From Mycolicibacterium litorale (lineage in GTDB: Bacteria; Actinomycetota; Actinomycetes; Mycobacteriales; Mycobacteriaceae), in the NCBI RefSeq assembly GCF_014218295.1, contig NZ_AP023287.1:1922001-1986000 (forward strand): a DNA stretch of 64,000 nucleotides, read 5' to 3'. Of the stretch, positions 48,839 to 64,000 are shown piece by piece. Within the stretch, counting starts at the first letter, position 1. The number at the start of each line of letters is the position of its first letter. The translations under genes were made by a program, and so were the position numbers. A model generated the notes under the pieces. That model did not search any database. It was not told the DNA's origin and saw nothing but the letters and a program-made list of their open reading frames with translations.

Positions 48839-49570
48839 ATGCCTCCACGCACAGCGACCAAGCGCACAGCCGCCCGCCCTGACGAGGGTCCGGCGCCGCG
48901 CGCGGACTTCGTGCGGCCCAAGACCGCCCAGCAGGCGGTGGCCGAGGCGCTGCGCCGCGACATCACCACCGGCAAGCTCGCACCCGGCAGCTGGATCGTG
49001 CAGGAGGCGTTGGCCGAGCAGTTCGGCATGTCCCGCATCCCTGTCCGCGAGGCGCTCAAGACGCTCGAGGCGGAGGAGTACATCACCTACGTCCCGCACA
49101 GCGGATACCGGGTCGCCAAGCTCGGGCTCGAGGATCTCCTCGAGGTGTTCCGGCTGCGCGTCATCCTCGAAGAGGAGTTGCTCCGCGACGCCATGCCGCG
49201 GATGACCGACGAGGTCGTCGACGCGATGCGCGCCGAGATGGCCGAAATGGATCGGGCGGCCGCCGCGGGCGACCTCATCGCCGTCGGGGTGGCCAACCGC
49301 CGGTTCCACTTCCTGCCGTTCGAGGCGAGCCGGATGGCCCGCACCCGGCGGCTGGTGACGCAGCTGTGGAACACCGCCGACGCCTACCGGCCGCTGTATG
49401 CCCACCTGATGGACCTGGAGAAGGTCAACAGCGAACACGTGCTGTTCGTCGAGGCGATGGTGACGCGCGACGTCGAGAAGGCGGTGGCGATCAACCATCA
49501 GCACCGCTCGCATGCCGTCGACCACCTGCACGAGGTGTTCGCCCGGGAGGAAGCCGGCCTACAGCCGTGA
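48839..49570 (+). CDS. GntR-family regulator, FadR/FCD subfamily
   Basis: 243 aa. Winged helix-turn-helix at about 28-98 (AVAEALRRDITTGKLAPGSW, LAEQFGMSRIPVREALKTLEAEEYI), then an all-helical FCD ligand domain with the metal-site residues Asp/His in NRRFHFLPF, SEHVLFVEA and NHQHRSHA. FCD regulators usually sense a small carboxylate and act as repressors. Four GTATCCAA-type sites lie before genes of the island only, so it is probably the pathway-specific regulator. The RidA gene overlaps its stop. Confidence 0.9.
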   Translation: MPPRTATKRTAARPDEGPAPRADFVRPKTAQQAVAEALRRDITTGKLAPGSWIVQEALAEQFGMSRIPVREALKTLEAEEYITYVPHSGYRVAKLGLEDLLEVFRLRVILEEELLRDAMPRMTDEVVDAMRAEMAEMDRAAAAGDLIAVGVANRRFHFLPFEASRMARTRRLVTQLWNTADAYRPLYAHLMDLEKVNSEHVLFVEAMVTRDVEKAVAINHQHRSHAVDHLHEVFAREEAGLQP

Positions 49571-50028
49571 CGCCGCGGGAGCGGCTGGCGGAGTGGGGGA
49601 TCGAGCTGCCGGCACCGCCGCCGCCCAAGGGTGCCTACATCCCGTACCGGTGGTGCGGTGACCAGCTGTGGATCTCCGGTGCCACCGCACGGCGGCCCGG
49701 GATCCCCGGCCTGCGCGGGATCGTCGGCGCGGACGTCACGATCGACCAGGCCGCCGACCAGGCGCGGCTGGCAGCGCTGAACCTGCTCGGCGCGGTGGAC
49801 GCGGCGGCCGGACTCGACGCGGTGCGCGGTCTGGTGCATCTTCGCGGATATGTCCGCGCGACAAGCGAATTCGATGATCATCCGGTGGTCATCGACGGCG
49901 CGTCACAGCTGATGCTCGAGGTGCTCGGGACCGATCGCGGTGCCCATGCCCGTACGGCGATCGGGGTGGCGTCACTTCCGGGCGGCGCCTGCGTCGAACT
50001 CGAACTGGTCGCCGCGATCGACCGCTGA
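49567..50028 (+). CDS. RidA-family enamine/imine deaminase-like protein
   Basis: 153 aa, GTG start overlapping the gntR stop (GTGA), so co-transcribed. RidA fold with QLWISGATARRPG, LNLLGAVDAAAGLDAVRGLVHLRGYV and the catalytic Arg region ARTAIGVASLPGGACVELELVAAI, where the Arg binds the substrate carboxylate. RidA proteins hydrolyse reactive 2-imino or enamine acids to 2-oxo acids plus ammonia. In this cluster it could deaminate the product of the enamidase-like enzyme. Confidence 0.82.
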   Translation: MTPRERLAEWGIELPAPPPPKGAYIPYRWCGDQLWISGATARRPGIPGLRGIVGADVTIDQAADQARLAALNLLGAVDAAAGLDAVRGLVHLRGYVRATSEFDDHPVVIDGASQLMLEVLGTDRGAHARTAIGVASLPGGACVELELVAAIDR

Positions 50029-50030
50029 GG

Positions 50031-50651
50031 TCACCGCAGCCGTTGCGCCGTGCGCCCGATCGCCAGCCCCAGCAGCACCCCGGCCGCCATGGTCAACAGC
50101 AGCGCTGCGTCGTCGAGGGTGACCGTCCGCCCACCAGCGAGGGCTGATTGGGTTGGGCGCGTTGGCCTTTCGTCGTCTTCGGCAACGTCGGTGCCGCCGG
50201 TGATCATGGCGTTCAACCTCTTGACGAACTGCGTGAGGATGCGGTTGCTCACCTGTGAGATGACGCCGCTGCCGAACTGCGCGATCCGACCGCCGAGTTC
50301 GAGGTCGGTCACCACGGTCACGTCGGATCGTCCTGCGGCGCCTGCGGAGTCGCGGGCGACCATCGTCACGGTCGCTTCCGCCGACCCGTTGCCCCTGCGG
50401 TCACGGGCCTGGCCGCGCACCACCATCTCGTGGATGTCGTCGTTGCGGCTGACGACGGTGGCCGTGCCGGCCAGCGTCAGGCCGACCGGGCCGACCTTGA
50501 CCGCGACGCTCGCGTGGTAGTCGTCGCCGTCGCGGCGGTCCAGGGCGGCGCCGGGGATGCACTCGACCACCCTGGGGATGTCGGTCAGCGCGGCCCACGC
50601 GGTGTCGAGGGGGGCGTCGACCGAGAACTCGTTGACGAGCCGCATCTGCAT
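50031..50651 (-). CDS. CoxG-like SRPBCC protein with C-terminal membrane anchor
   Basis: 206 aa. The START-like fold begins RLVNEFSVDAPLDTAWAALTDIPRVVECIPGA and continues to about residue 150 (COG3427, CoxG). The C-terminus TVTLDDAALLLTMAAGVLLGLAIG is a single transmembrane helix. CoxG proteins go with CO-dehydrogenase-like molybdenum hydroxylases and are thought to bring the enzyme to the membrane or to bind quinone. Here it is divergent from the LLM gene across a shared operator. Convergent with RidA. Confidence 0.82.
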   Translation of the reverse strand: MQMRLVNEFSVDAPLDTAWAALTDIPRVVECIPGAALDRRDGDDYHASVAVKVGPVGLTLAGTATVVSRNDDIHEMVVRGQARDRRGNGSAEATVTMVARDSAGAAGRSDVTVVTDLELGGRIAQFGSGVISQVSNRILTQFVKRLNAMITGGTDVAEDDERPTRPTQSALAGGRTVTLDDAALLLTMAAGVLLGLAIGRTAQRLR

Positions 50652-50711
50652 CTCCTCTTCTCGGACGAGTTCGCCCGTTCCGGTTGTGGGTCCGGGGGCG
50701 CCACCCTACGA

Positions 50712-50728
50712 TTGGATACGATATCCAA
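50712..50728. promoter_or_regulatory. GntR palindromic operator 2, coxG/LLM divergent promoter
   Basis: TTGGATACGATATCCAA: a perfect 7-bp inverted repeat with 3-bp spacer. It lies between the coxG-like gene (start 50651) and the LLM gene (start 50747), 18 nt before the latter, so one operator can control both. Confidence 0.75.
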
Positions 50729-50746
50729 CGGTAGGAGGTCGAGCAG

Positions 50747-51745
50747 GTGTTGAGCAAGGGAGTCGGTCTCTTCCCGACCGAGCCCGTCGGGGCCATGTGT
50801 GATTACGTGCGGTTGTGTGAGTCGCTCGGATACGACAACGTGTGGTTCGGCGACTCGCAGAACATCTGGCGCGAGTCCTCGACCGTGATGGGCGCCGCGG
50901 CCGTCGGCACCGAGCGGATCGTGTTCGGCACCGGCGTCACCAACGCCGTCACACGGCATCCGTCGCTGCTGGCCTCGACGTGGGCGACGCTGGCGGAGTT
51001 CACCGGCGGCCGGGTGGCACTGGGCATCGGCACCGGCGACTCGTCGTTGCGCACGATGGGCCTCAAACCGCAGAAGCTCGCCGAGCTGGAGGAGTCGATC
51101 CGCCAGTTGCGGGCGCTGTTTCGCGGGGAGAAGGTCGTCGAGGCGACCAGCGGCGCCGACTTCCACCTCAACTACCTGACGGAGCCGCTCGACATCCCCG
51201 TCTACATCGCCGCGTCCGCGCCCAAGATTTTGCGCATGTCCGGGCGCATCGCCGACGGTGTGATCGTATTGGTCGGCACCGCACCGCATTTCATCGAAGC
51301 GGCGCTGAAGACGATTGAGGCCGGTGCGGCCGAGAGCGGGCGCACCCTCGACGACCTGCACATCGTGTTGTGGACTCCGACGGCGATCAGTGAGGACCGC
51401 ACTGAGGCCAGGGACCTGGTGCGCGCCCACGTGTCGCGCGTCGCGATCCGGCCGCTGCCCGCCAAAGTGGAGCCTGCGCTGGAGAAGGCGATCGACCGCA
51501 TCCGCGACTCCTACAACTACTACGAGCACATGAACACCGAGGCCTCGCACGCCGATCTGGTGCCCGACGAACTCGTCGACCTGTTCGCCTTGGCGGGTAC
51601 GCCCGCCGAGTGTGCTCAGCGGCTCAAGGAGATCGAGGCCCTCGGCGTCGACCAGGTCTCGATCGTGCCGTTCGTCAGGCCCGGCCAGAGTCGCGCGCAG
51701 ACGATCCGCACCTTCGCCGAGATCGTGGGCGGATCGGGGCAGTGA
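50747..51745 (+). CDS. LLM-class (F420- or FMN-dependent) oxidoreductase
   Basis: 332-aa TIM-barrel luciferase-like monooxygenase fold. Family motifs: YDNVWFGDSQNIWRESS, ERIVFGTGVTNAVTRHP, GRVALGIGTGDSSLRTMGLKP, IPVYIAASAPKILRMSGRIADGVI, LAGTPAECAQRLKEIEALGVD. The Mer/F420-type pattern (GTG.TN...RHP) favours F420, which mycobacteria make, but the sequence alone cannot settle the cofactor. Proposed role: hydride transfer to the hydroxylated ring. TTG-like alternatives not needed; AGGAGG precedes the start. Confidence 0.87.
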   Translation: MLSKGVGLFPTEPVGAMCDYVRLCESLGYDNVWFGDSQNIWRESSTVMGAAAVGTERIVFGTGVTNAVTRHPSLLASTWATLAEFTGGRVALGIGTGDSSLRTMGLKPQKLAELEESIRQLRALFRGEKVVEATSGADFHLNYLTEPLDIPVYIAASAPKILRMSGRIADGVIVLVGTAPHFIEAALKTIEAGAAESGRTLDDLHIVLWTPTAISEDRTEARDLVRAHVSRVAIRPLPAKVEPALEKAIDRIRDSYNYYEHMNTEASHADLVPDELVDLFALAGTPAECAQRLKEIEALGVDQVSIVPFVRPGQSRAQTIRTFAEIVGGSGQ

Positions 51746-52050
51746 CCGATGAGGCGGCGGCGCGCTATCCGGCCCCAGGCAGTCCGGTGCCCGGCGCCCC
51801 GCCGCCGTTGAAGCGGGCGCTTACGCCGGCCGACGGTGCGACCGTGGGGCCGCAAGGCACGCCGCCGGAAGAAGCGGCGCATCAAGCGAATTCGCGTCCG
51901 CCAACGGCAGGCGCGGGCAGCGGTGTGGGGGAGCGGGGTGCGCCGGTGCGGGCGCCCCGGTTGACGGCGGCGGCCGCCATGGTGGGCATTGCCGCGGGGC
52001 TCGAACTCGCCGGGGTGTTGGCGCGTCGGTCCAAAGGGGTGAAATGTTGA
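51742..52050 (+). CDS. Hypothetical small membrane protein
   Basis: 102 aa, GTG start overlapping the LLM stop (GTGA), so translationally coupled. The N-terminal two thirds are Pro/Ala/Gly-rich and disordered; LTAAAAMVGIAAGLELAGVLA near the C-terminus looks like one membrane helix ending in RRSKGVKC. No domain recognised. Its place next to a membrane-anchored CoxG-like protein suggests a role at the membrane, but this is a guess. Confidence 0.55.
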   Translation: MTDEAAARYPAPGSPVPGAPPPLKRALTPADGATVGPQGTPPEEAAHQANSRPPTAGAGSGVGERGAPVRAPRLTAAAAMVGIAAGLELAGVLARRSKGVKC

Positions 52051-52075
52051 CGCAGATCACACCTGTTCGTATGCT

Positions 52076-52083
52076 GTATCCAA
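52076..52083 (+). promoter_or_regulatory. GntR half-site 3, upstream of the ABC importer operon
   Basis: GTATCCAA in TGCTGTATCCAATATTC, 25 nt before the substrate-binding protein ATG. A GGAGG lies between it and the start. Confidence 0.6.
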
Positions 52084-52108
52084 TATTCAGTTTACCGGAG
52101 GTTGTCCG

Positions 52109-53092
52109 ATGATCTGGTCCCCCAAGGCTTTTGCCGCCCTCTTCGCCGCAGGCGCGCTCCTTCTCGGAGCCACCGCATGCGCCGACGAATCCGCCGAACC
52201 CGCCGCCCAGGGCACCGACGAGCTGAGCATCTCGGCCACCGGTGTCGACAGCCTGCCGTTCATGGCCATTCTGCAGGCCGGCATCGACAAGGGCTGGTTC
52301 GAGGAGGAGGGTCTCAAGGTCGATCTGTACTCCGGTGGCGGGGGTGGCAACACGCTGCGCGTGGTCACCAGCGGCGACGCCGACATGGCCATCGCGGGCA
52401 ACACATCGGTCCTGCTGGCCGCCCGCCAGGCCGACTCCAACCTCAAGGTCATCGCGCCATGGTTCCAGATCAACGATTTCTCGTGGATCTCACCACCCGG
52501 ACGCACGATCGAAGGCGCCACCCTGGGCTTCAGCTCGGCCGGCTCCTCCACCGAGTTGATCGTCAAGGCGCTCGAGAAGAAACTCGGCGTCAAGTCGCAG
52601 GCCGTCGGCCCGATGGGCGACAACTGGACGGCCGCCAAGGCCGGCCAGATCACCGCCGGATGGGCCATGCAGCCGTTCATCGCCGACAAGCAGGCCACCG
52701 ACAACGCCGAGGTCCTGGTGAACTCGCGTGACGTCATCGGGGACATGCCCGCCGATCTCGTCGCGGTCAACGGCGACTACGCCGAAGCCAACGGCGACAA
52801 CCTGAAGGCCTTCTTCCGCGTCGCCGACCGCCTCAACACGTGGGTGGTCGAGAAGCCCGAGGAGGCGAGCGCCGAACTCGGCCCGCTGGTCGGGGTGAGC
52901 CCCGAGGTGATGGCCGCGGCGCTGCGCAACACCCCCGACATCGAGAAGGGCTACTCGCTGACCGTCGACCCGGCCGGGCTGAAGAACCTGTCCGATCTGA
53001 TGGTCGCCGCCGGCCAGATCCCCGAGCCCGTCGACTGGGCCACGGTGCTCGACCAGCAGTACCTGCCCGACGACGCCCGCACCGAGTTCTGA
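52109..53092 (+). CDS. ABC importer substrate-binding lipoprotein (NMT1/SsuA-like)
   Basis: 327 aa. Signal peptide with lipobox-like ATAC (Cys about residue 24), then an NMT1/TauA/SsuA-type periplasmic binding fold: SLPFMAILQAGIDKGWFEEEGLKVDLYSGGGGGNTLR, SGDADMAIAGNTSVLLAARQ, GFSSAGSSTELIVKALEKKLGV. Family ligands include taurine, sulfonates, thiamine precursors and riboflavin-like or heteroaromatic compounds. First gene of the import and hydroxylase operon. Confidence 0.88.
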   Translation: MIWSPKAFAALFAAGALLLGATACADESAEPAAQGTDELSISATGVDSLPFMAILQAGIDKGWFEEEGLKVDLYSGGGGGNTLRVVTSGDADMAIAGNTSVLLAARQADSNLKVIAPWFQINDFSWISPPGRTIEGATLGFSSAGSSTELIVKALEKKLGVKSQAVGPMGDNWTAAKAGQITAGWAMQPFIADKQATDNAEVLVNSRDVIGDMPADLVAVNGDYAEANGDNLKAFFRVADRLNTWVVEKPEEASAELGPLVGVSPEVMAAALRNTPDIEKGYSLTVDPAGLKNLSDLMVAAGQIPEPVDWATVLDQQYLPDDARTEF

Positions 53093-53133
53093 CCGGAGCC
53101 GGCTCACCGCCCCCTGACCACGATCGGAGTCTC

Positions 53134-53940
53134 GTGAACGCGACATCCCAGGGCATCGAGATGCGCGGCGTGTCCGTGGTGTTCGACGCCCCGGCGGGCA
53201 AGGTCACCGCCGTCACCGGTATCGACCAGGACGTGCCCCACAGCAGCTTCGTGTCCATCGTCGGGCCGAGCGGCTGTGGCAAGTCGACGCTGCTGGCCGT
53301 CATCGCCGGCCTGCAGCGCGCCACCACCGGGCACGTCAGTGTGGCCGGCAAGACGGTGACCGGGCCCGACCCCAAGATCGGCGTGGTGTTCCAGGAGGAT
53401 TCGACGCTGCCGTGGCGCACCGTCGAGGACAACGTCAGCTTCGCCATGGAGATGATCGGCACCGCGAAGGCCGAACGCCGCCAGCGGGCGAAGGAGGCCA
53501 TCGACCTCGTCGGTCTGAGCGGGTTCGAGAAGTCCTACCCCTCGCAGCTGTCCGGCGGAATGCGTCAGCGCGTCGCCCTCGCCCGCACCCTGGCGGTGCA
53601 GCCGGAGGTGGTGCTGATGGACGAGCCGTTCGCGGCGCTCGACCAGCAGACCCGGCTGTTCCTCGGCGCCGAGGTCCGCCAGATCTGGGCTCGCACCCAC
53701 CAGACCGTCGTCTTCGTCACGCACGACATCAGCGAGGCGATCCTGCTGTCCCAGCAGGTGTGGGTGATGTCCTACCGGCCGGGGTCGATCATCGACGTCG
53801 TCGACATCGACCTGCCCGCGGACCGGGACGCCGGCGTGGTCTCGACGCCGCGCTTCAACGAACTGCACAACCGGATCTGGGGATCGCTGCAGGCCGAATC
53901 GATGCGCGGGTTCCGGCAGCAGGAGACGGCGGCCACATGA
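53134..53940 (+). CDS. ABC importer ATPase (SsuB/TauB-like)
   Basis: 268 aa. Walker A GPSGCGKSTLLAVIAGL, Q-loop VVFQEDSTLPWRT, signature LSGGMRQRVALARTL, Walker B VVLMDEPFAALD, H-loop FVTHDISEAILL. GTG start at 53134; the frame extends upstream inside the binding-protein gene but the domain begins here. Energises uptake by the two permeases; ATGA overlap with the next gene. Confidence 0.94.
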   Translation: MNATSQGIEMRGVSVVFDAPAGKVTAVTGIDQDVPHSSFVSIVGPSGCGKSTLLAVIAGLQRATTGHVSVAGKTVTGPDPKIGVVFQEDSTLPWRTVEDNVSFAMEMIGTAKAERRQRAKEAIDLVGLSGFEKSYPSQLSGGMRQRVALARTLAVQPEVVLMDEPFAALDQQTRLFLGAEVRQIWARTHQTVVFVTHDISEAILLSQQVWVMSYRPGSIIDVVDIDLPADRDAGVVSTPRFNELHNRIWGSLQAESMRGFRQQETAAT

Positions 53941-54788
53941 CGGCGTCGTACCTGGCCGAAGACGATCTGCCCACCGAGACCGTGCCCCCGCATCCGGCCG
54001 GCCCCAAAGCCACGCGACGTCCCCGCCGGATGGGCAGCGCGCTGGTCAGCGTGCTGTCCACCGTCGCACTCATCGCGCTGTTCCTCGTGTTCGCCGAGAT
54101 CGGCTCGGCGGCGGGGTGGTGGAGCGAACGTGTGCTGCCCGCCCCCTCGACCATCTTCGGGGAGCTGCCCACGCTGTTCGGCGACCCGCAGTTCTGGCTC
54201 GACGCCCGCCGGACCGGCATGGAGGTCGCGGTCTCGATCCTGATGGGCAGCCTGCTGGGCTTCGCCGCGGGTCTGACGTTCTGGAAACTGCCCACCGTCG
54301 GCCGTGTCTTCGAGCCGTATCTGGTGTCGTTCTACGCGGTGCCGCTGGTGCTGTTCTATCCGGTGATGATCGTGCTGGTCGGCATCAACGCGATGTCGGT
54401 GATCATCCTGGCGACGATCATGGCGGCGATTCCCATGGCGCTCAACACCGCCGTCGGCCTGAACACCATGCCGCCGGTGTACATGAAACTCGCCCGCTCG
54501 CTGAAAGCCTCACCGCGCCAGACCCTGTTCGCGATCGCCATTCCGGCGGCCGGGCCGTTCATCGTCGCCGGCTTGCGCCTCGCGGTGGTCTACGCGCTGA
54601 TCGGCACGATCGCGATGGAGTTCACCACCGCGCAGGCCGGGCTCGGCTACCGCATCCGCTACCTGTACGAGATCTTCGACAACACACTGATGTTCGCCTA
54701 CATCGCCGTGGTGCTGGCGCTCTCGATGATCCTGACCGTGCTGCTGGCGCTCGTCGAGCGGGTCCTGCTGCGAGGGAGGAAGGCATGA
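53937..54788 (+). CDS. ABC importer permease 1
   Basis: 283 aa. About six membrane helices; BPD_transp_1 fold with the EAA-like loop YMKLARSLKASPRQTLFAIAIPAAGPFIVAGLRLAV that contacts the ATPase. A cytoplasmic N-terminal tail of ~35 residues is longer than usual. ATG overlaps the ATPase stop; ATGA overlap with permease 2. Confidence 0.92.
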   Translation: MTASYLAEDDLPTETVPPHPAGPKATRRPRRMGSALVSVLSTVALIALFLVFAEIGSAAGWWSERVLPAPSTIFGELPTLFGDPQFWLDARRTGMEVAVSILMGSLLGFAAGLTFWKLPTVGRVFEPYLVSFYAVPLVLFYPVMIVLVGINAMSVIILATIMAAIPMALNTAVGLNTMPPVYMKLARSLKASPRQTLFAIAIPAAGPFIVAGLRLAVVYALIGTIAMEFTTAQAGLGYRIRYLYEIFDNTLMFAYIAVVLALSMILTVLLALVERVLLRGRKA

Positions 54789-55564
54789 CCGCCACGCTGC
54801 CGCGCCCCGACGCCGTACCCGCGTCGCGCCGCATCCGCGCACTGTTGGGCAACCAGTTCGTCGGCGCCGTCGCGCTGGCCGTCGTGGTGGTGATCGGCTG
54901 GGAGATCATGTCCAGCCTGACGTTCGTGATCCCGTCACCGGTGCAGACGCTCACCGTGCTCGTCGCGAACCTGTCGGATCCCAGCTACCTGTTCGACCTG
55001 CGGGTGACCGCGCAGGCGGTGTTCCTGGCGTTCGTGATCGGCACGGCCGTCGGCGGTGGCATCGGCCTGCTGCTCGGCCTGTCGCAGCGGCTGCGTCAAC
55101 TGTTCGAGCCGCTGATCATCATGCTCAACGGCATCCCGAAGATCGTGCTGTATCCGGTGTTGCTGCCCATCTTCAGCCTGTCCGGCTCCAAGGTCGTGAT
55201 GGGTGTGCTGTTCGCGCTGTTCCCGGTGCTGATCAACGTGTCCACCGGTGTGCAGGAGATTCCCCGGGTGTACTGGAAGCTCGCGCGGTCGGTGCGCGCG
55301 AACGCCTGGCAGACGTTGGCGCACATCATCTTCCCCGCGATCCGGCGCCCGCTGCTGACCGGTATCCGGCTGGCGGTCAGCCTGTCGGTCGTCGGTGTGG
55401 TGCTCTCGGAGTTCTTCGCAACCCGGCGCGGTCTCGGGCGAGTGGTGTTGCAGTCCTACAGCCACGGCGACTATCCGTCCATGGTGGCGACGATCATGCT
55501 GTTGATCACGATCTCGTTCGCGATCTCGGTGGCGTTGTGGCAGTGGGAAAAACGGCTACATTGA
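54785..55564 (+). CDS. ABC importer permease 2
   Basis: 259 aa. Same family as permease 1 but only distantly similar, so the importer is a heterodimer. EAA loop YWKLARSVRANAWQTLAHIIFPAIRRPLLTGIRLAV. Most NMT1/TauT systems use a single permease gene, so the pair is unusual. Its stop overlaps the start of the molybdenum hydroxylase large subunit. Confidence 0.92.
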   Translation: MTATLPRPDAVPASRRIRALLGNQFVGAVALAVVVVIGWEIMSSLTFVIPSPVQTLTVLVANLSDPSYLFDLRVTAQAVFLAFVIGTAVGGGIGLLLGLSQRLRQLFEPLIIMLNGIPKIVLYPVLLPIFSLSGSKVVMGVLFALFPVLINVSTGVQEIPRVYWKLARSVRANAWQTLAHIIFPAIRRPLLTGIRLAVSLSVVGVVLSEFFATRRGLGRVVLQSYSHGDYPSMVATIMLLITISFAISVALWQWEKRLH

Positions 55565-57870
55565 GCTACATCGGCACCTCGGTACGGCGCCGCGAGGACG
55601 ACCGGATGCTCGAGGGGCAGGGCCGGTTCGTCGCCGACCGTGCGGCGGGCGCGTACCACGCGGTCTTCGTGCGGTCCAGTGAGGCCCATGCCCGGATCCA
55701 TCACATCAAAACCGCCGCGGCGGCGCGCATGCCCGGCGTCCTCGGCGTCTACACCGCAGCCGATCTCGGGCTGACCGGCGCGGCGATCCCCGCGCTGACG
55801 GTCCCCAATCCGGCGTTCACGGCGGCGACGAACTGTTTCCTGGCCGACCAGCGGCTGCCGGTGCTGGCCGCCGACACGGTGCACTACATCGGCCAGCCGA
55901 TCGCCGTGCTGGTCGCCGAGGACCGCTATCGCGCCGAGGATGCGCTGGAAGCGGTCGAGGTGGACTACACGCCGTTGCCCGCCGTCACCGACCCGGTGGC
56001 GGCACTCGGCCGTGACAGCGCGGTGCTGTTCGCGCACCTCGGGAGCAACGAGGCCGCGCGGCTCGAGTTCTCGTTCGGCGACGTCGAGCGTGCTTTCGCC
56101 GGCGCCGCACACGTCGTCGAGGGCACCTACCGGATGAACCGGCACGGGGCCATCCCGCTCGAGGCGCGGGGAGTGCGGGCGTCGTTCGACGCGCAACGGC
56201 AGCGGGTCGAGTTGTGGACTTCCACCCAGATCCCGCACACCGTGCGCAATGCGATCTGCGCGGTGACGGGGTGGACGCAGCAGGACATCACGGTCGCCGT
56301 GCCCGACGTCGGGGGCGGGTTCGGCACGAAGGCCAACGTCTACGCCGAGGAGATCGCGCTGGCCGTGCTGGCCCGCCACACCGGCCGCCCGGTCATCTGG
56401 ATCGAAGACCGCCAGGAACACCTCGTCGCCAGCGCGCAGGCGCGCGACCAGGTCCACGACACCCGCCTCGCGGTCGACGCCGACGGCCACATCCTGGCCT
56501 GGGAGGACTCGTTCATCGCCGACATCGGCGCGGGCAGCCTCTGGGTGGCGGGCATCGTCGCGAACACCGCGATCCATCTGCTGGGGCCGTACCGGGTGCC
56601 GGCCGCCCACATCACCGGACGCGCCGCGCTGACCAACAAGACCCTCACCGCCCAGTACCGGGGGGCGGGCCGGCCCGAAGCCACGTTCGCGCTCGAACGC
56701 AGCCTCGACGCCGCCGCGCGGCGCCTGGGGATCAGCACCGAGGAGATCCGGCGCCGCAACCTGCTCACCGCCGCCGACCTGCCGTATGCGCGTCCGCTGC
56801 CGTACCGCGACGGCGTACCGATCTCGTTCGACGGCGGCGACTACGTGGCCTGCCTGGACTCGGTGTCGAAGCTGTTGCCGCGCACCGAGATCGAGAGGTG
56901 CGCGGCCGAGCATCCCGACCATCGCATCGGCTACGGGTTGTCGTCGTACCTGGAGGCGACCGGCCGCGGCCCCCACGAGACGGCCCGCATCCGGCTGCTC
57001 TCCGACGGCGGGTTCGAGGTCACCGCGGGCGCGGCCGCCGCGGGCCAGGGGCACGAGACCGTGTTCGCGCAGGTGGCGGCCGAGGCGCTGGGCGTGCCGA
57101 TGGAGTGTGTGCGCTACGTTCCCGCCGACACCGAGCGGCTGCCGGAAGGGGTCGGCACGTTCGCGAGCCGCTCGGCGATCCTGGCCGGCTCCGCGGTGCA
57201 CGAGGCGGCAGGCAAGCTGGTCGAGGCCGCGGTCGAGCGCGTCCGCCGCCTCCTCGGGGTGGACGGCGCCCCGATCGAGTACGCGCACGGGATGTTCCGC
57301 GTCGCCGGACGGGTGCTGAGCTGGCTGGAGATCGCGCGCGCCCAGGCCGTCGGCGGGGACGCCGAGAGCGGTGCGGCCCTCGACGTCACCGCGGTGTTCC
57401 GGGTGGAGACGGTCACGTGGACGATGGGTGTGCACGCCGCGATCGTCGGGGTGCACCGGCGCACCGGCCTGGTGAAGGTGCTGCGGTACGCGGTGTCCCA
57501 CGAGGGTGGCCGCGAGATCAACCCGCGCATCGTGGAGGGCCAGATCGTCGGCGGTGTGGCGCAGGGGCTCGGGGGCGCACTGTTCGAGCAGTGGCGCTAC
57601 TCCGATGCGGGACAACCGCTCTCGACGACGTTCGCGGCGTACCACCTGCCGCTGTCGACCGACGTACCCCGCGTGTCGGTGGAGCACCTCCACGTCGACA
57701 CCCCGGTCAACCCGATCGGGGTGCGGGGCGCGGGGGAGAGCGGCACGATCGCGGTGTACGCGGCGGTGGCGAGCGCGGTCGACGACGCCCTCGACGGCGC
57801 CGTCCACGTCGACAGCACGCCGATCCGTCCCGGTGACCTCTGTCGCGCGCTGGCCGGGGAGTCGTTGTGA
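55561..57870 (+). CDS. Molybdenum hydroxylase large subunit (CoxL/XdhB-like, form II)
   Basis: 769 aa. Molybdopterin-binding subunit of a xanthine-oxidase-family enzyme that hydroxylates a carbon next to ring nitrogen or an aldehyde. N-terminus SYIGTSVRRREDDRMLEGQGRFVAD; PDVGGGFGTK; Mo-site loop QYRGAGRPEATFALER; VGTFASRS; catalytic Glu in GVRGAGESGTIAV. It lacks the AYRCSF loop of true CO dehydrogenase, so CO is not the substrate. I choose TTG 55561 (TTGA overlap with the permease stop), which gives the family N-terminus; GTG 55537 is possible. Confidence 0.9.
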   Translation: MSYIGTSVRRREDDRMLEGQGRFVADRAAGAYHAVFVRSSEAHARIHHIKTAAAARMPGVLGVYTAADLGLTGAAIPALTVPNPAFTAATNCFLADQRLPVLAADTVHYIGQPIAVLVAEDRYRAEDALEAVEVDYTPLPAVTDPVAALGRDSAVLFAHLGSNEAARLEFSFGDVERAFAGAAHVVEGTYRMNRHGAIPLEARGVRASFDAQRQRVELWTSTQIPHTVRNAICAVTGWTQQDITVAVPDVGGGFGTKANVYAEEIALAVLARHTGRPVIWIEDRQEHLVASAQARDQVHDTRLAVDADGHILAWEDSFIADIGAGSLWVAGIVANTAIHLLGPYRVPAAHITGRAALTNKTLTAQYRGAGRPEATFALERSLDAAARRLGISTEEIRRRNLLTAADLPYARPLPYRDGVPISFDGGDYVACLDSVSKLLPRTEIERCAAEHPDHRIGYGLSSYLEATGRGPHETARIRLLSDGGFEVTAGAAAAGQGHETVFAQVAAEALGVPMECVRYVPADTERLPEGVGTFASRSAILAGSAVHEAAGKLVEAAVERVRRLLGVDGAPIEYAHGMFRVAGRVLSWLEIARAQAVGGDAESGAALDVTAVFRVETVTWTMGVHAAIVGVHRRTGLVKVLRYAVSHEGGREINPRIVEGQIVGGVAQGLGGALFEQWRYSDAGQPLSTTFAAYHLPLSTDVPRVSVEHLHVDTPVNPIGVRGAGESGTIAVYAAVASAVDDALDGAVHVDSTPIRPGDLCRALAGESL

Positions 57871-58742
57871 AGCCGGCCGAATTCGCTTACCACCGACCCG
57901 ATTCGGTGGCCGAGGCGCTCGACCTGCTGGCCGCCCACCCCGACGCCAAGCTCCTGGCGGGCGGCCAGTCGCTGCTGGCGCTGATGAACCTCCGGCTGGC
58001 CCGGCCGTCGACGATCGTCGACATCGGCCGGCTCACCGAACTCACGAGGGTCTTCGACGACACCGACGATCTGATCCTCGGCGCACTGGTCACCCACCGC
58101 ACCGTCGAGACCGACCCGCTGATCGCCGCGCGGGCACCGCTGCTGGCCGACGCCGCCCGCTACATCGGCCACGTCGCGATCCGCAACCGCGGCACCGTCG
58201 GCGGATCGGTCGCGCATGCCGATCCGGCAGCCGAGATGCCGCTGGCAACCCTGGTGCTCGACGCGACCTTCCACGTGGAGTCCGCGGTGTGCGGCCGTAG
58301 ACGGGTCGCCGCCGAGGACATGTTCGTGTCCTTCTACACCAACGGGCTCGAATCCCACGAGATGCTGACCTGGATCTCGGTACCCGCCATCCGGCCCGAA
58401 CAGGGCTGGGGTTTCGTCGAATACGCTCCGCAGCACGGTGACTATGGGCTGGCGGGCGCCGGGTGCCTGCTCACCCTGCGCGCCGACGGGACCGTGGACT
58501 CCGTCCGCGCGGCGGTGCTCAGCGCCGCCGACCGGCCGTTGCTGTTCGTCGCCGGTGACGTGGCCGGAACGCCGCCCTCGGCGGGGCTGTGGCGAGACCT
58601 CGCCCACACCTGGGCCGCACGCACCGAGCCGGCGGCCGAGGACGCCGACTACGTCCGCCGGCTGTGCACCGAGGCGCTCACCGAGGCGCTGACCGCAGCG
58701 GCGGGGCGGGCGGCGCGAGAACAGGAGAGCACCCATGTGTGA
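57867..58742 (+). CDS. Molybdenum hydroxylase FAD subunit (CoxM-like)
   Basis: 291 aa. FAD-binding PP-loop LLAGGQSLLALMNLRLARP and IRNRGTVGGSVAHADPAAEMP, both standard for the medium subunit. Receives electrons from the 2Fe-2S subunit. GTG start in a GTGA overlap with the large subunit. Order L-M-S differs from the usual M-S-L of cox operons. Confidence 0.94.
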   Translation: MKPAEFAYHRPDSVAEALDLLAAHPDAKLLAGGQSLLALMNLRLARPSTIVDIGRLTELTRVFDDTDDLILGALVTHRTVETDPLIAARAPLLADAARYIGHVAIRNRGTVGGSVAHADPAAEMPLATLVLDATFHVESAVCGRRRVAAEDMFVSFYTNGLESHEMLTWISVPAIRPEQGWGFVEYAPQHGDYGLAGAGCLLTLRADGTVDSVRAAVLSAADRPLLFVAGDVAGTPPSAGLWRDLAHTWAARTEPAAEDADYVRRLCTEALTEALTAAAGRAAREQESTHV

Positions 58743-59226
58743 CGTTCCCGCGGCCGTGGCGGTGTCGGTGACGATCAACGGCAGAGCGGTGTCGCGTTCG
58801 GTGCCGCCGCGGCTCACCCTGGCCGACTTCCTGCGCGACGAACTCGGCCTGACCGGAACGCATCTGGGCTGCGAGCACGGGGTGTGCGGCGCGTGCACCG
58901 TCTTCGTCGACGGCCGTAGCGCCCGTGCCTGCCTGACGTTGGCGGTGCAGGCCGACGGGTCCCGGGTGGACACCGTCGAGGGCCTGGAGGTCTTCGAGGA
59001 GACCGCCCGCCTGCGCCGGGCGTTCAGCGAGCGCGGTGGTCTGCAGTGCGGCTTCTGCACGCCGGGGTTCCTGGTCAGCGCGGTGGAACTGTTGCGCGAC
59101 ACCGACGCCGACAAACCGCTCACGGAGGAGTCTGTCCGGGAAGCGTTGTCGGGCAATATCTGTCGCTGCACCGGATACCAGGGCATCGTGCAGGCCGTGC
59201 TCGACGCCGCGAGCACGCCGGAGTAA
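58735..59226 (+). CDS. Molybdenum hydroxylase 2Fe-2S subunit (CoxS-like)
   Basis: 163 aa. N-terminal plant-type cluster: CEHGVCGACTV with a fourth Cys in ARACL; C-terminal cluster: CGFCTPGF and CRCTGYQG. Shuttles electrons from Mo to FAD. The ATG overlaps the FAD-subunit end by 8 nt. Confidence 0.96.
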   Translation: MCDVPAAVAVSVTINGRAVSRSVPPRLTLADFLRDELGLTGTHLGCEHGVCGACTVFVDGRSARACLTLAVQADGSRVDTVEGLEVFEETARLRRAFSERGGLQCGFCTPGFLVSAVELLRDTDADKPLTEESVREALSGNICRCTGYQGIVQAVLDAASTPE

Positions 59227-60290
59227 TGCGCGTCGCGGCCGGCGCTGCCCTGCCGACCCTGCTGCGGCCGGTGGGGCGCCCCCGATGGGGTATGGCCGCC
59301 GCGCTCGCCGCCACCCTGGGGCTGCTGCTGATCGCGCCGCACCTGCTGGGCCGTCCCGCCCTCGGCTCCGCGCTGGCACTGGGTTTCGTGCTCACCGCGG
59401 TGCCGTCGCTGCCGACGGCGTGGCGGCCGGCGCTGGCGACCATGTCGGCACGGGCGGCGGCGGTGCTCGTCGGCGGGGCGCTCGTCGTCGCCTGCGCCGA
59501 TCGTCCCGTCGCCCTGGCCGTGGTGACCGTGGGCGCCGCGGTCACCGGCGCACTGATCGACCGGGTGGGGGCCACCGCGGGTCTTGCGGTGGTGCTGATC
59601 GCGATCGACACGGGCATCGCCGGCGGTGCCCGGCCGTGGCTTTCGGATCTGCCGGCCTACGCGGTCGGGGCGGCCGCGGTGTTCGCGGCGTGGGCGGCGT
59701 GGTGGGCTGGGGCGAGAGCCGTTGCGGCACTGGGAAACCGGCAGTCCACGGACCGCGAGGTGCCCGCCACGCGGAGCGTCGACCGCACGCACGCCGTCCG
59801 GGTGGCGGTCGCCGTTGCGGTGGCGGTGGCACTCGCCGGCTGGCTGCCCGACGATCTGGTGGGTGGGCACTGGTTGGTGACGAGCGTGCTGCTGACCATC
59901 CAGCCGGGCCGGCCGGCCACCCGGGTGCGCCTGGTGCAACGGCTGTGCGGCAACACCGCGGGCGCCGTCCTGGCGGCGGCGCTGCTCGGCGCTCATCCGG
60001 CCGTCCCGGTGGCGGTCGCGGTGACGGTGCTGCTGTTCCTGTTGGCCGTCGCGCTGCGGCCGGTGAACTACACCTGGTGGGCGGTCACCGGTCCGCCCGT
60101 GCTGCTGGTGGTGAGCGAGTATCCGCAGTGGTTCCCGTGGTACGAGGGCGGCGTCCGGCTGGCGATGAACCTGCTCGGCGCGGCGATCGTCGTCCTCGTC
60201 GTGTTCGTGGCGCCCGGGGCGTGGAGCCACTTTCGCCGGCGCGCCGATTCGGATAGTGTATACAAAATCCAATGCAAGGAGGTGCCGTGA
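59226..60290 (+). CDS. FUSC-like integral membrane protein
   Basis: 354 aa, two bundles of hydrophobic helices (about 20-180 and 205-335) separated by a polar linker, as in FUSC/aromatic-acid exporter-like proteins; HWLVTSVLLTIQPGRPATRVRLVQRLCGNTAGAVLAA is the FUSC_2 signature region. Family members export aromatic acids such as p-hydroxybenzoate. Starts on the previous stop (TAATG). The last ~12 codons contain GntR site 4, so the gene end doubles as the next unit's promoter. Confidence 0.78.
   Translation: MRVAAGAALPTLLRPVGRPRWGMAAALAATLGLLLIAPHLLGRPALGSALALGFVLTAVPSLPTAWRPALATMSARAAAVLVGGALVVACADRPVALAVVTVGAAVTGALIDRVGATAGLAVVLIAIDTGIAGGARPWLSDLPAYAVGAAAVFAAWAAWWAGARAVAALGNRQSTDREVPATRSVDRTHAVRVAVAVAVAVALAGWLPDDLVGGHWLVTSVLLTIQPGRPATRVRLVQRLCGNTAGAVLAAALLGAHPAVPVAVAVTVLLFLLAVALRPVNYTWWAVTGPPVLLVVSEYPQWFPWYEGGVRLAMNLLGAAIVVLVVFVAPGAWSHFRRRADSDSVYKIQCKEVP
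60258..60272 (+). promoter_or_regulatory. GntR site 4, inside the FUSC gene end
   Basis: GTATACAAAATCCAA: half-site GTATACAA (one mismatch to GTATCCAA) followed by a second ATCCAA, flanked by GGAT on the left (60251). It is 14 nt before the GTG of the enamidase-like gene and only 2 nt before its AAGGAGG. Confidence 0.5.
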
Positions 60291-61516
60291 CGACACTGCT
60301 CGTGGAGGACATCGGGCTGCTCATCCACGGCGACCCTGCCCTCGCCCCGCTGCGCGACACCACCCTGGTCGTGGAGGACGGGGTGATCACCGGTATCGGC
60401 ACCGACCATCCCGCTCCGGACCAGGTCCTGTCCGCGGGCGGCCTCACCGTCATGCCGGGCCTGGTGGACGGACACGTCCACCCGACCTTCGGAGAATGGA
60501 CGCCGGCACAGGACGCGGTCGGATGGATCGGCAACTACCTGCACGGCGGCACCACGTCGATGGTCTCCGCCGGCGAACTCCACATTCCCGGTCTGGCGTT
60601 CGACGCACTGACGCCTGAGCTCGTGCTGTCGATCGCCATCACCTCCAAGCACACCACGGGCCGGATGCGCCCGTCCGGGGTCAAGGTCAACGCGGGCACG
60701 GTGCTGCTGGTCCCCGGCATGACCGAAGCACACTTCGACCGCGCCCACGCCGAGGGTGTCGACCAGCTCAAGTTCATCTTCTACGACTGGAACCGGTTGG
60801 GCGACGGGGAAGCCCAGCGCTACATGCAGTGGGCCCACGCCCGCGGGATGACGGTGAAGATGCACTCGGGCGGCGTCTCACGGTCCGGGTCGAGCCGCGT
60901 CGCGGGCAGCGACGTCGTGCTGGCCGTGCGGCCGGACATCGTCGGTCACATCTCCGGCGGCCCGATTCCCGCGCCCGACGCCGACATCGCGGCCATCATC
61001 GCCGATCTGCCGTCGGCGTATGTGGAGGTGTGCAGCTCCAACAACTACCGCGCCACCAAGTTCGTCGCCGAACAGCTGATGGCGCGCGACCAGGTGCACC
61101 GGCTCACGCTCGGCACCGACACGCCCGGCGGCACCGGGGTGATCCCGCGCGGCATGCTGCGCAACGTCTGCTATCTGGCGTCGGTGTGCGGACTCGATCC
61201 GGTGGCGGCGGTGGCCGCCGCCACCGGCCAGACCGCGCGGGCGCACGGACTCGACACCGGAGTGATCGCCGAAGGCCGACCCGCCGATCTGCTGGTGCTC
61301 GGGCCGATCACCGGATCGGTGGCCGGCGACGCGCTCGAGTGTTTCGCCCTCGGCGACCTTCCCGGCATCGCGACCGTCCTCGTCGACGGTGTGGCGCTGG
61401 TGGAGACCCGCAGCCAGCAGACGCCCCCACCGAGCCGCGCGGTCACCTGGAAACGTCCGGCCGCCCAACCCCCGCGCCTGCCCGCCCCCGCCGCCCGCAG
61501 CACCGGCTGCTGCTGA
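60287..61516 (+). CDS. Amidohydrolase resembling enamidase
   Basis: 409 aa. Closely resembles, from memory, the enamidase of Eubacterium barkeri nicotinate fermentation: LHGGTTSMVSAGELHIPG, RPSGVKVNAGTVLLVPGMTE, MQWAHARGMTVKMHSGG, VGHISGGPIPAPD, LGTDTPGGTGVIPRGMLRNVC and a C-terminal SQQTPPPSRAV. Metal ligands: HVH (63-65), His of KMHSGG, His of GHISGG, Asp of GTDTPGG. The enamidase opens a cyclic enamide to an oxo acid plus ammonia. Start GTG 60287 has AAGGAGG 5 nt upstream; an ATG at 60272 lies within that site. The bridging ligand may differ from the clostridial enzyme. Confidence 0.83.
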   Translation: MTTLLVEDIGLLIHGDPALAPLRDTTLVVEDGVITGIGTDHPAPDQVLSAGGLTVMPGLVDGHVHPTFGEWTPAQDAVGWIGNYLHGGTTSMVSAGELHIPGLAFDALTPELVLSIAITSKHTTGRMRPSGVKVNAGTVLLVPGMTEAHFDRAHAEGVDQLKFIFYDWNRLGDGEAQRYMQWAHARGMTVKMHSGGVSRSGSSRVAGSDVVLAVRPDIVGHISGGPIPAPDADIAAIIADLPSAYVEVCSSNNYRATKFVAEQLMARDQVHRLTLGTDTPGGTGVIPRGMLRNVCYLASVCGLDPVAAVAAATGQTARAHGLDTGVIAEGRPADLLVLGPITGSVAGDALECFALGDLPGIATVLVDGVALVETRSQQTPPPSRAVTWKRPAAQPPRLPAPAARSTGCC

Positions 61517-61532
61517 CCCTCGAGGAGATCTG

Positions 61533-62717
61533 TTGTCCCGCACCGTGACCGAACCGATGTCACCCGACACGCTGATCGGGATCGACGCGCTGCTCAGCGA
61601 CGAGGAGCGCCAGATCCGCGACACCGTGCGCGCGCTCGTCAAGCGCCGGATCGCCCCGGAGATCGCGGCCTGGTACGAGAACGGCGAGCTGCCCGCCCGG
61701 GAGCTGGCCCGCGAACTCGGCGACCTCGGCCTGCTCGGGATGCATTTGGAGGGATACGGCTGCGCCGGCACCTCGGCCGTCGCCTACGGGCTGGCCTGCC
61801 TCGAACTCGAAGCCGGCGACTCCGGCATCCGCTCCCTGGTCAGTGTCCAGGGCTCCCTGGCGATGTACGCCATCCACGCCTTCGGCAGCGAGGAGCTCAA
61901 GCAACACTGGCTGCCGCGGATGGCGGCGGGCACGGCGATCGGCTGCTTCGGCCTGACCGAACCCGACCACGGCTCCGACCCGGCCGGAATGCGCACCCGC
62001 GCCACCCGCGACGGTGACGACTGGATCCTCAACGGCGCGAAGATGTGGATCACGAACGGGTCGGTCGCCGACGTCGCGGTGGTCTGGGCCCGCAGCGACG
62101 AAGGTATCCGCGGATTCGCCGTCCCCACCGACACTCCGGGTTTCACCGCCCACACCATCAAGTCGAAGATGTCGCTGCGGGCCTCGGTGACCAGCGAACT
62201 GGTGCTCGAGGACGTCCGGCTGCCCGACAGCGCGCGCCTGCCCGGCGCGACCAGCCTGCGCGCCCCGCTGAGCTGCCTGAACGAGGCCCGGTTCGGCATC
62301 GTGTTCGGTGCGTTGGGCGCCGCCCGTGACTGCCTGGAGACCGCGCTGGACTATTCACGCTCGCGGCGCCAATTCGATCGGGCGATCGCCGAATTCCAGC
62401 TCACCCAGCAGAAACTCGCCGACATGACGCTCGAATACGGCAAGGGTCTGCTGCTCGCCCTCCATCTCGGGCGCCTCAAGGACGCCGGGGACATCGCCGG
62501 CCACCAGGTCAGCCTCGGCAAGCTCAACAGTGTGCGCGAGGCGCTGACGATCGCCCGCACGGCGCGCACCATCCTCGGCGCCAGCGGCATCACCTCGGAG
62601 TATCCGGTGATGCGGCATGCCAACAACCTCGAGTCGGTGCTGACCTACGAGGGCACCAGCGAGATGCATACTCTCATCATCGGCCAGGCGTTGACGGGAC
62701 TGTCCGCGTTCCGCTGA
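61533..62717 (+). CDS. gcdH: Glutaryl-CoA dehydrogenase-like acyl-CoA dehydrogenase
   Basis: 394 aa. Converts glutaryl-CoA to crotonyl-CoA plus CO2. Highly similar to human GCDH: EGYGCAGTSAVAYGLACLEL, DSGIRSLVSV with the Arg that binds the distal carboxylate (Arg100), GCFGLTEPDHGSDPAGM, WITNGSVADVAVVWAR, GRLKDAGDIAGHQVSLGKLN, and catalytic Glu373 in LTYEGTSEMHTLI. I use TTG 61533, which has GAGGAG 5 nt upstream; GTG 61545 and ATG 61557 are in-frame alternatives. Downstream of the enamidase by 16 nt. Confidence 0.9.
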   Translation: MSRTVTEPMSPDTLIGIDALLSDEERQIRDTVRALVKRRIAPEIAAWYENGELPARELARELGDLGLLGMHLEGYGCAGTSAVAYGLACLELEAGDSGIRSLVSVQGSLAMYAIHAFGSEELKQHWLPRMAAGTAIGCFGLTEPDHGSDPAGMRTRATRDGDDWILNGAKMWITNGSVADVAVVWARSDEGIRGFAVPTDTPGFTAHTIKSKMSLRASVTSELVLEDVRLPDSARLPGATSLRAPLSCLNEARFGIVFGALGAARDCLETALDYSRSRRQFDRAIAEFQLTQQKLADMTLEYGKGLLLALHLGRLKDAGDIAGHQVSLGKLNSVREALTIARTARTILGASGITSEYPVMRHANNLESVLTYEGTSEMHTLIIGQALTGLSAFR

Positions 62718-62745
62718 CGGCCACGGCGTGAGTTCAGGAGGCCCG

Positions 62746-64000
62746 GTGGCCAGCACGAAACGTGAAGCCGTCGACGAACACTTCACGACCACGATCTCGG
62801 CCCTGCCGCGCGGCGCGGCACGGCGGCGCGGGGACGACGACGCCGTCCGCGACGGGTCCACGGTGACTGTGCACGAGGCGCTCTCGCTGTTCGACGCCGC
62901 GCTCGGCAGCCGTCACCTCGACCTGGCCGCCCGGTGGCTGCGCTCGCAGGGCCGCGGCTACTACACGATCGGATCGTCCGGTCACGAGGGCAACGCCGCC
63001 GTGGCGGCGGCGCTGCGCCCGACCGACCCGGCGCTGCTGCACTACCGCTCGGGTGGCTTCTTCCTCGCCCGCGCCCAGCAGGTCGACGACGGACTGTCCG
63101 CGGCGCTGCGAGATGTGCTGCTCGGTCTCGTCGCCGCCACCGAGGAGCCGATCTCCGGCGGCAGACACAAGGTCTTCGGCCGGGCCGACCTCAACATCAT
63201 TCCGCAGACCAGCACCATCGCCTCGCACCTGCCGCGTGCGGTCGGGGTGGCGTTCTCCACGGCGCGCGCCCGAAAACTCGGCGTGCCCTGCCACTGGCCC
63301 GACGACGCCGTCACGGTGTGCAGCTTCGGCGACGCCTCGGTCAACCACTCCACCGCGGTCGGGGCGCTCAACACCGCCATGCACACCGCCTATCAGGGCA
63401 TGCCGATGCCGCTGCTGTTCGTGTGCGAGGACAACGGCATCGGCATCTCCACCAGGACACCGCGCGGGTGGGTGGCCCGCACCTATGCGCATCGGGAAGG
63501 GTTGCAGTACTTCGCCGCCGACGGGTCCGATCTGGTGGCGAGCCTGGAGACCGCCCGCACGGCGGCGGCCTGGGTCCGCGCGCAGCGCCGCCCCGCCTTC
63601 CTGCACCTGTCCACGGTGCGGTTGATGGGCCACGCCGGCTCGGACTACGAACCGGCCTACCGCCGCCCGGACGAGATCACCGCCGACTTCGACCGCGACC
63701 CGGTGCTGTGTACCGCGAGAATGCTTGTGGCCGAGGGAATCCTGTCGCCGGACGAGGTGCTGGAACGCTACGAGGCGACCCGCCGCGACGTGATCGGCAT
63801 GGCCCGCGACGTCGCCGACCTGCCCCAGCTCGACACTCCCGACGCCGTGCTCCGCCCGCTGCGCGACAGCCTCGACGAGGCGGTGGCCGCGTCGGCCGCA
63901 CCGTATCCCGCGACCGAGGGGCCTGCGACTCCGATGACGGTGGCGCAGGCGATCAACCGCGCGCTGGCCGACACGCTGGCCCGCCACCCCGAGACGCTCG
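62746..64000 (+). CDS. 2-oxoacid dehydrogenase E1, fused alpha/beta, 3' end outside window
   Basis: Open to the right edge, 418 residues seen. Thiamine-diphosphate enzyme of the branched-chain/pyruvate type. N-terminal alpha part: LRSQGRGYYTIGSSGHEG, ISGGRHKVFGRADLNIIPQ, TPP motif FGDASVNHS ... CEDNGIGIS; from about residue 395 TPMTVAQAINRALADTLARHP begins the beta domain, so both subunits are in one chain. Decarboxylates a 2-oxo acid to an acyl-lipoyl group; E2 and E3 are not in view. CAGGAGG lies 4 nt before GTG 62746; GTG 62728 is in frame too. Adjacent to glutaryl-CoA dehydrogenase. Confidence 0.87.
   Translation, partial: MASTKREAVDEHFTTTISALPRGAARRRGDDDAVRDGSTVTVHEALSLFDAALGSRHLDLAARWLRSQGRGYYTIGSSGHEGNAAVAAALRPTDPALLHYRSGGFFLARAQQVDDGLSAALRDVLLGLVAATEEPISGGRHKVFGRADLNIIPQTSTIASHLPRAVGVAFSTARARKLGVPCHWPDDAVTVCSFGDASVNHSTAVGALNTAMHTAYQGMPMPLLFVCEDNGIGISTRTPRGWVARTYAHREGLQYFAADGSDLVASLETARTAAAWVRAQRRPAFLHLSTVRLMGHAGSDYEPAYRRPDEITADFDRDPVLCTARMLVAEGILSPDEVLERYEATRRDVIGMARDVADLPQLDTPDAVLRPLRDSLDEAVAASAAPYPATEGPATPMTVAQAINRALADTLARHPETL

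Follow-up and report, generated by a model that had tools for sequence, protein, structure and literature searches.

The window analysed here is a stretch of 64,000 nucleotides (G000:C1:1922001-1986000) from the 5.63-Mb, one-contig genome of the soil mycobacterium Mycolicibacterium litorale, and its end carries a gene cluster (Table 1) that is quite probably, judging from its sequence and that of its relatives, a catabolic operon for the reductive breakdown of picolinate (pyridine-2-carboxylate). The initial annotation of this DNA had listed a GntR/FCD regulator, RidA, a CoxG-like protein, an LLM oxidoreductase, an NMT1-type importer, the three subunits of a molybdenum (Mo) hydroxylase, a FUSC-like protein, an enamidase-like amidohydrolase, a glutaryl-CoA dehydrogenase (GCDH) and the E1 of a 2-oxo acid dehydrogenase, and had described them as tightly coupled. 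Matches in Pfam, NCBIfam and the PDB place all of these families at or near where it had put them and add an ABC ATPase, two permeases and a small protein; the coupling also holds, with nine same-strand joints that overlap by 1-8 bases (one hinging on the uncertain start of the Mo large subunit) and four short gaps. The E1 gene runs beyond the window, where it matches Transket_pyr and Transketolase_C in Pfam. The genes next to it, where E2 or E3 had been thought possible, encode a CoA-transferase III and a thioesterase, so that E2 and E3 are not adjacent to the cluster; three E2 genes lie elsewhere in the genome.

Table 1. Genes of the cluster and the two that follow it. L-numbers are the chromosomal loci that we compared and G-numbers the genomes; L005 is the stretch directly beyond the window end.
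Product and proposed role	Position	Strand	Basis
GntR/FCD regulator, probably of the cluster	48839..49570	+	Pfam FCD, GntR
RidA-family protein; proposed 2-imino/enamine acid deaminase giving 2-oxoadipate and NH3	49567..50028	+	PF14588/PF01042
CoxG-like protein; proposed electron acceptor/quinone link of the Mo hydroxylase	50031..50651	-	PF06240
LLM reductase; proposed F420H2-dependent 6-hydroxypicolinate reductase	50747..51745	+	Mer-like, 1z69 2.4e-40
Small hydrophobic-tailed protein	51742..52050	+	no Pfam match
NMT1-type ABC substrate-binding protein	52109..53092	+	PF09084
ABC ATPase, start 53134 or 53161	53134..53940	+	PF00005; start codons
ABC permease 1	53937..54788	+	PF00528
ABC permease 2	54785..55564	+	PF00528
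Mo-hydroxylase large subunit, start uncertain; proposed picolinate 6-hydroxylase	55561..57870	+	PDB 7dqx, 1t3q
Mo-hydroxylase FAD subunit	57867..58742	+	NCBIfam match under cut-off
Mo-hydroxylase 2Fe-2S subunit	58735..59226	+	NCBIfam match under cut-off
FUSC_2 membrane protein; possible aromatic-acid efflux	59226..60290	+	PF13515
Enamidase-like amidohydrolase; proposed opener of 1,4,5,6-tetrahydro-6-oxopicolinate	60287..61516	+	2vun 4.6e-81
Glutaryl-CoA dehydrogenase (GCDH), start 61545 or 61557	61545..62717	+	3sf6 725 bits
Fused alpha/beta E1 of 2-oxo acid dehydrogenase; proposed substrate 2-oxoadipate	62746..64000, on to L005:935	+	PF00676; start codon
CoA-transferase III	L005:956-2173		downstream of E1
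TesB-type acyl-CoA thioesterase	L005:2170-2982		downstream of CoA-transferase III

Scanning named genomes, we obtained 37 loci with an enamidase-like gene. Once stretches from further genomes had been added and enamidase copies with identical inner stretches merged, there were 44 distinct loci of at least 55% identity, the window not counted. Of these, 39 are actinobacterial with at least 60% identity, and most share cluster neighbours where the stretch is long enough, so the set does recur in other actinobacteria, where the initial annotation had proposed to look. The core (GntR, RidA, CoxG, LLM, the ABC system, the three Mo subunits and enamidase), whose two halves are variously oriented, is found in Mycolicibacterium, Sciscionella, Sphaerisporangium, Nonomuraea, Pseudonocardia and Georgenia; among the matches listed, the named relatives closest to the window enamidase and LLM enzyme are mostly Mycolicibacterium or Mycobacterium. 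Across 198 genomes of the genus, the 21 that carry an orthologue of the enamidase (at least 500 bits) are exactly those that carry one of the LLM enzyme (E 1e-110 or better), the weaker enamidase matches of G401 and G538 being 36%-identity paralogues that we did not count. The recurrence is far beyond chance; the odds for the match between LLM enzyme and enamidase ignore phylogeny. RidA lies beside GntR in 20 of the 24 loci whose stretch includes GntR, and the small hydrophobic-tailed protein has a homologue in 15 of 18 genus loci fetched whole (L085, L087-L103). Some loci deviate: in the Georgenia cluster (L032) the RidA-family protein is of a different type (PF01042), CoxG was not seen in L029, and the stretch examined from Amycolatopsis (L043) shows neither LLM nor Mo genes, with an LLM enzyme of 81% identity on record from the same species. 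In L094 the RidA homologue matched as two pieces that overlap, which may reflect a frameshift or a fault in the assembly. In the 20-kb actinobacterial stretch L105 (G135), a pair of LLM genes accompanies two enamidase paralogues, of 63% and 41% identity, and a RidA-like protein, a Rieske-type protein and an aldehyde dehydrogenase were named there by eye.

The end of the pathway is best seen from the genes that replace one another there. Among the 39 actinobacterial loci, 27 have E1 adjacent (24 of them GCDH as well), and six, three of them mycobacterial, have HglS in place of E1 and GCDH (L022, L088, L090, L027, L028 and L032). The exit is undecidable at contig ends in two (L012 and L030), and both exits were seen together in none of the 39, the L022 stretch ending 99 bases past the enamidase. 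All six HglS genes lie at most 1.2 kb from the enamidase. Four (L028, L032, L088, L090) were tested against the NCBIfam equivalog cut-off and all exceed it, that of L027 exceeds a Pfam cut-off, and that of L022 is named from 58% identity. All six keep HGAIR, H[IV]NHLT and GEVEARG, which by our own mapping presumably carry Arg74 and the HHE triad of HglS. Among the 21 enamidase-positive genomes of the genus, E1 is present in 19, and the remaining two, G445 and G470, are precisely those whose cluster contains HglS; in the genome as a whole, HglS is found in four of these 21 genomes and in 90 of the other 177 (Fisher p 0.006), a phylogeny-uncorrected contrast to which we give no weight. In L027 and L028, HglS is followed by an FAD/FeS protein resembling D-2-hydroxyglutarate dehydrogenase (YdiJ model match under cut-off in L028). 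On chemical grounds, a 6-oxo-tetrahydropyridine-2-carboxylate yields 2-oxoadipate when opened, after imine loss, and the 3-carboxylate does not. Since two unrelated exits share 2-oxoadipate, the substrate would be a 2-carboxypyridine and not nicotinate, and the replacement strongly supports a picolinate-type route through 2-oxoadipate, the substrate type favoured in the initial annotation. The characterised HglS, given a panel of 2-oxo acids, was active on 2-oxoadipate alone (PMC7286885, partial text).

The remaining enzymes can be placed upstream and downstream of 2-oxoadipate. Among solved structures, the Mo large subunit is closest to N-heterocycle hydroxylases, with 6-hydroxypseudooxynicotine dehydrogenase 7dqx (1.6e-141) and quinoline 2-oxidoreductase 1t3q as best matches, and QYRGAGR and GESG are present in all 13 aligned large subunits. 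CO dehydrogenase was ruled out by the QYRGAGR loop, which stands in place of AYRCSFR, presumably the active-site loop of the aerobic enzyme, and by NCBIfam scores under cut-off. A purine or aldehyde route, named earlier as a possible alternative, has no backing gene that we recognised in the cluster, although aldehyde- and CO-dehydrogenase models top the Mo-subunit scores. The amidohydrolase matches the enamidase of Eubacterium barkeri over 384 of its own 409 residues (residues 3-386; Table 1), its only strong solved relative, the next PDB match being at 6.6e-06, and its enamidase-like identity is thereby upheld. H63, H65, H193, H221 and D278, which we take to be the HxH, two further His and Asp metal ligands, align to 2vun and are invariant in 13 aligned sequences. 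The best solved matches of the GCDH are so named, and two paralogues of 67-68% identity lie elsewhere in the genome. The six aligned cluster RidA-like proteins all keep the Arg of the ART motif, which presumably acts like Arg105 of RidA.

That the reductase uses the rare cofactor F420 is suggested by its relatives and their neighbours. The solved structures nearest to the LLM enzyme are F420-dependent methylenetetrahydromethanopterin reductases (Mer; 1z69, 2.4e-40). It retains the GVTN motif and has Gly at the position of Glu6, which rules it out as Mer itself: in Mer, Glu6 is catalytic and the cis-peptide loop has a role (PMC11094777, partial text). The database names of its homologues (best 120 of 853 matches) offer nothing beyond LLM or Mer. 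In three HglS-type clusters (L088, L090 and L032), an F420-dependent glucose-6-phosphate dehydrogenase that scores above its equivalog cut-off is encoded 9-27 bases away from the enamidase; none was seen in the stretches of L027 and L028, though these are of the same type. Two metagenome-assembled genomes of Hyphomicrobiales carry F420 genes together with enamidase, LLM and Mo large-subunit genes: FbiC, CofC, CofD, CofE and FGD in L036 (LLM identity 44%), and FbiC (a shorter call), CofD, CofE and FGD in L042, where no CofC was called. These are probable F420-dependent catabolic loci in Proteobacteria. Three other enamidase-bearing proteobacterial genomes (L033, L034, L041) have no LLM match at E 1e-60 and may use another reductase. 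Because Mer is the nearest solved relative and F420-dependent glucose-6-phosphate dehydrogenase or F420-biosynthesis genes lie at related loci, the LLM reductase is probably F420H2-dependent.

From gene content, homology, synteny, co-occurrence and exit replacement we infer the following substrates, cofactors and reactions. The NMT1-type ABC system would import picolinate, and the Mo hydroxylase would convert it to 6-hydroxypicolinate, passing electrons to the quinone pool through CoxG, which we take to be its electron acceptor. The LLM enzyme would then deliver a hydride from F420H2 to C4, giving 1,4,5,6-tetrahydro-6-oxopicolinate; the enamidase would open this cyclic enamide to 2-aminohex-2-enedioate or 2-iminoadipate, and RidA would speed the hydrolysis of this product to 2-oxoadipate and ammonia. 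E1, with E2 and E3 encoded elsewhere, could turn 2-oxoadipate into glutaryl-CoA and GCDH this into crotonyl-CoA, and in some relatives HglS would instead produce D-2-hydroxyglutarate. More generally, it seems fairly likely that such a pathway is widespread in actinobacteria and has a relative in some Hyphomicrobiales: reductive dearomatisation of a pyridinecarboxylate by an LLM enzyme that depends on F420H2, with picolinate converted to 2-oxoadipate, which leaves by either of two interchangeable exits, E1/GCDH or HglS.

Several observations weigh against this reading. The gene evidence fits picolinate, 6-hydroxypicolinate or another precursor alike. E1 is present in 55 of the 198 genus genomes, 36 of which have no enamidase orthologue; as it is not specific to the cluster and perhaps resident, its adjacency weighs less than the replacement by HglS. 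HglS is itself common in the genus (94 of 198 genomes, two of them with broken fragments only). Neither exit is adjacent in four of the 39 loci (L024, L025, L029, L105), the first three of which have E1 elsewhere in the genome. The genomes of L036 and L042 yielded no HglS and no E1, and may therefore differ in substrate or exit. RidA was not seen in four of the 24 loci that allow a check (L024, L025, L028, L029), which qualifies its earlier inclusion in the cluster, and the L040 stretch is without the LLM gene, as it is without binding protein and ATPase. No NCBIfam LLM model reaches its cut-off with the LLM enzyme, and the families matched differ in cofactor; for the Mo large subunit, the two top-scoring models (CO dehydrogenase group 5 and glyceraldehyde dehydrogenase) stay below their cut-offs, and the GCDH reaches no cut-off either. 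The window enamidase has Lys162 where 2vun has a Glu nearby (with a one-column shift in the alignment), so its chemistry may differ. Finally, the proposed route has no step for the CoA-transferase III and the thioesterase.

The E1 deserves closer attention. Its status as a cluster-only gene is ruled out by the 36 cluster-free genomes and by its tree (43 rows, 42 chosen loci and the window), which mixes cluster-bearing and cluster-free rows, these sitting at shared chromosomal places. This corrects the initial annotation, whose E1 is adjacent to the other cluster genes but not specific to them. In L155 and L156, E1 has HglS, piperideine-6-carboxylate (P6C) dehydrogenase and GCDH-like genes as neighbours, and in L163 it stands beside P6C dehydrogenase; the equivalog cut-off is exceeded by both HglS and P6C dehydrogenase in L155, and by P6C dehydrogenase in L163. 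This context also backs 2-oxoadipate, and E1 looks like a general 2-oxoadipate enzyme. The same run in L155 and L156 includes, by eye, a Glu/Leu-dehydrogenase-like gene and forms a lysine-type locus with both 2-oxoadipate exits. Nine further stretches comprise eight with E1 in other surroundings and one (L165) with HglS beside a D-2-hydroxyglutarate-dehydrogenase-like gene. The presence of both E1 and HglS in lysine/pipecolate-type loci would also suit another compound ending in 2-oxoadipate, for instance a pyridine that is substituted or acts as a precursor, or a ring that is already partly saturated, like a piperideine carboxylate. We think this unlikely: the Mo hydroxylase, the F420-type reductase and the F420-dependent glucose-6-phosphate dehydrogenase point to an aromatic ring that has to be reduced, and the stretches examined of the lysine-type loci contain none of the three.

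The window cassette is flanked by a HAD gene (47998-48771) and yraN/comM-like genes (L005:13000-15300; by eye). In L157, L161 and L166, E1 comes directly after a HAD gene 87-91% identical to that of the window, so the cassette may lie between this gene and a resident E1. The E1 tree groups these three loci with cluster-bearing rows, and L162 with another set. L166 has the same HAD, E1, CaiB, TesB and yraN/comM-like genes without the cassette. The pattern reflects either repeated insertion of the cassette next to E1 or its loss from such places; cassette and E1 occur together in at least five surroundings, with neighbours judged by eye.

Reductive nicotinate degradation, as in E. barkeri and Azorhizobium, would run from nicotinate through 6-hydroxynicotinate, tetrahydro-6-oxonicotinate, 2-formylglutarate and glutarate to glutaryl-CoA by a CoA-transferase III; its glutaryl-CoA end in Azorhizobium was reportedly described by Kitts et al. 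in 1992. The closest solved enamidase is the nicotinate one, GCDH is adjacent, a CoA-transferase III lies downstream, and the route to 2-formylglutarate is already known (PMC9304392, partial text). We nevertheless regard nicotinate as an improbable substrate, and the doubts of the initial annotation about it are reinforced: 2-formylglutarate is not a 2-oxo acid and hence, on chemical grounds, suits neither HglS nor E1. The CoA-transferase is missing in 13 of 27 E1-type loci, and in L157 and L166 it accompanies E1 although the cluster is absent. No gene of a 2-formylglutarate branch was recognised in the cluster, the whole genome not having been searched for one. The enamidase points the same way, as KF[IL]F and GGVSRS are found in the window protein and in all 20 aligned sequences of at least 54% identity. 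Of 14 aligned paralogues (36-45% identity), by contrast, four (L106, L107, L109, L111) have E-I-G-I-S and GG.S.P, near 2vun, and the other ten show Lys in the corresponding strand but no GGVSRS; as Lys by itself fails to tell the groups apart, we dropped Lys162 as a mark of cluster enamidases. The KF[IL]F/GGVSRS motifs set the cluster enamidase apart from the nicotinate type, as a subgroup and not as proof of substrate. The four Glu-type paralogues are candidates for nicotinate-type pathways in other actinobacteria; Mo-hydroxylase genes are present in L106, L107 and L109. Least probable is an LLM enzyme that uses FMN, or oxidises instead of reducing, with the ring opened without F420: the mixed cofactors of its under-cut-off families and database names (flavin-dependent or Mer) would allow it, but F420-dependent glucose-6-phosphate dehydrogenase or F420-biosynthesis genes share the locus in actinobacterial and proteobacterial relatives.

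If the cluster does degrade picolinate reductively, it would bring an F420-dependent pyridine-ring reductase and a second, non-oxidative picolinate route, a likely catabolic role for F420, and a function for a family of LLM enzymes whose present labels are methylenetetrahydromethanopterin reductase or LLM class oxidoreductase. The initial annotation had spoken of an undescribed reductive pathway ending in glutaryl-CoA. This was too broad, as the nicotinate route of E. barkeri and Azorhizobium is already reductive (PMC9304392, partial text); for the F420-linked 2-oxoadipate variant, we recognised no description among the papers listed by searches of the open-licence PMC literature, which leaves subscription journals mostly outside. 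The accessible parts of three papers on nitrogen regulation in M. smegmatis (PMC3662644, PMC4222082, PMC4617892) do not mention tetrahydromethanopterin or glutaryl-CoA. Picolinate is a tryptophan metabolite (PMC10439173, partial text). The picolinate genes described in the part of PMC10142695 available to us are the oxidative pic genes of Gram-negative bacteria, and the same text names Gram-positive degraders in Arthrobacter, Streptomyces and Rhodococcus, for which our cluster is a candidate gene set.

The proposed pathway shares traits with several known systems. The reductive nicotinate pathway of E. barkeri and Azorhizobium caulinodans also starts with Mo hydroxylation. As far as our partial source for it extends, the hydroxylated pyridine ring is likewise partly saturated there and its C-N bond opened hydrolytically (by enamidase in E. 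barkeri); the cluster differs in its LLM/F420-type reductase, its enamidase of another subgroup, its RidA and its proposed 2-oxoadipate in place of 2-formylglutarate. With the oxidative pic cluster of Alcaligenes faecalis JQ135 it would share the proposed first step to 6-hydroxypicolinate (PMC10142695, partial text), whereas no PicB monooxygenase, PicC decarboxylase, PicD dioxygenase or maleamate genes are among its genes, the rest of the genome not having been searched. The LLM enzyme resembles Mer in family and in GVTN at the cis-peptide loop, and departs from it in the loss of the catalytic Glu and in its catabolic gene context. Finally, D-lysine/pipecolate catabolism also passes through 2-oxoadipate, with HglS and, here, E1/GCDH as exits, but it is entered by amino acid oxidation, whereas the entry here would be from an aromatic ring.

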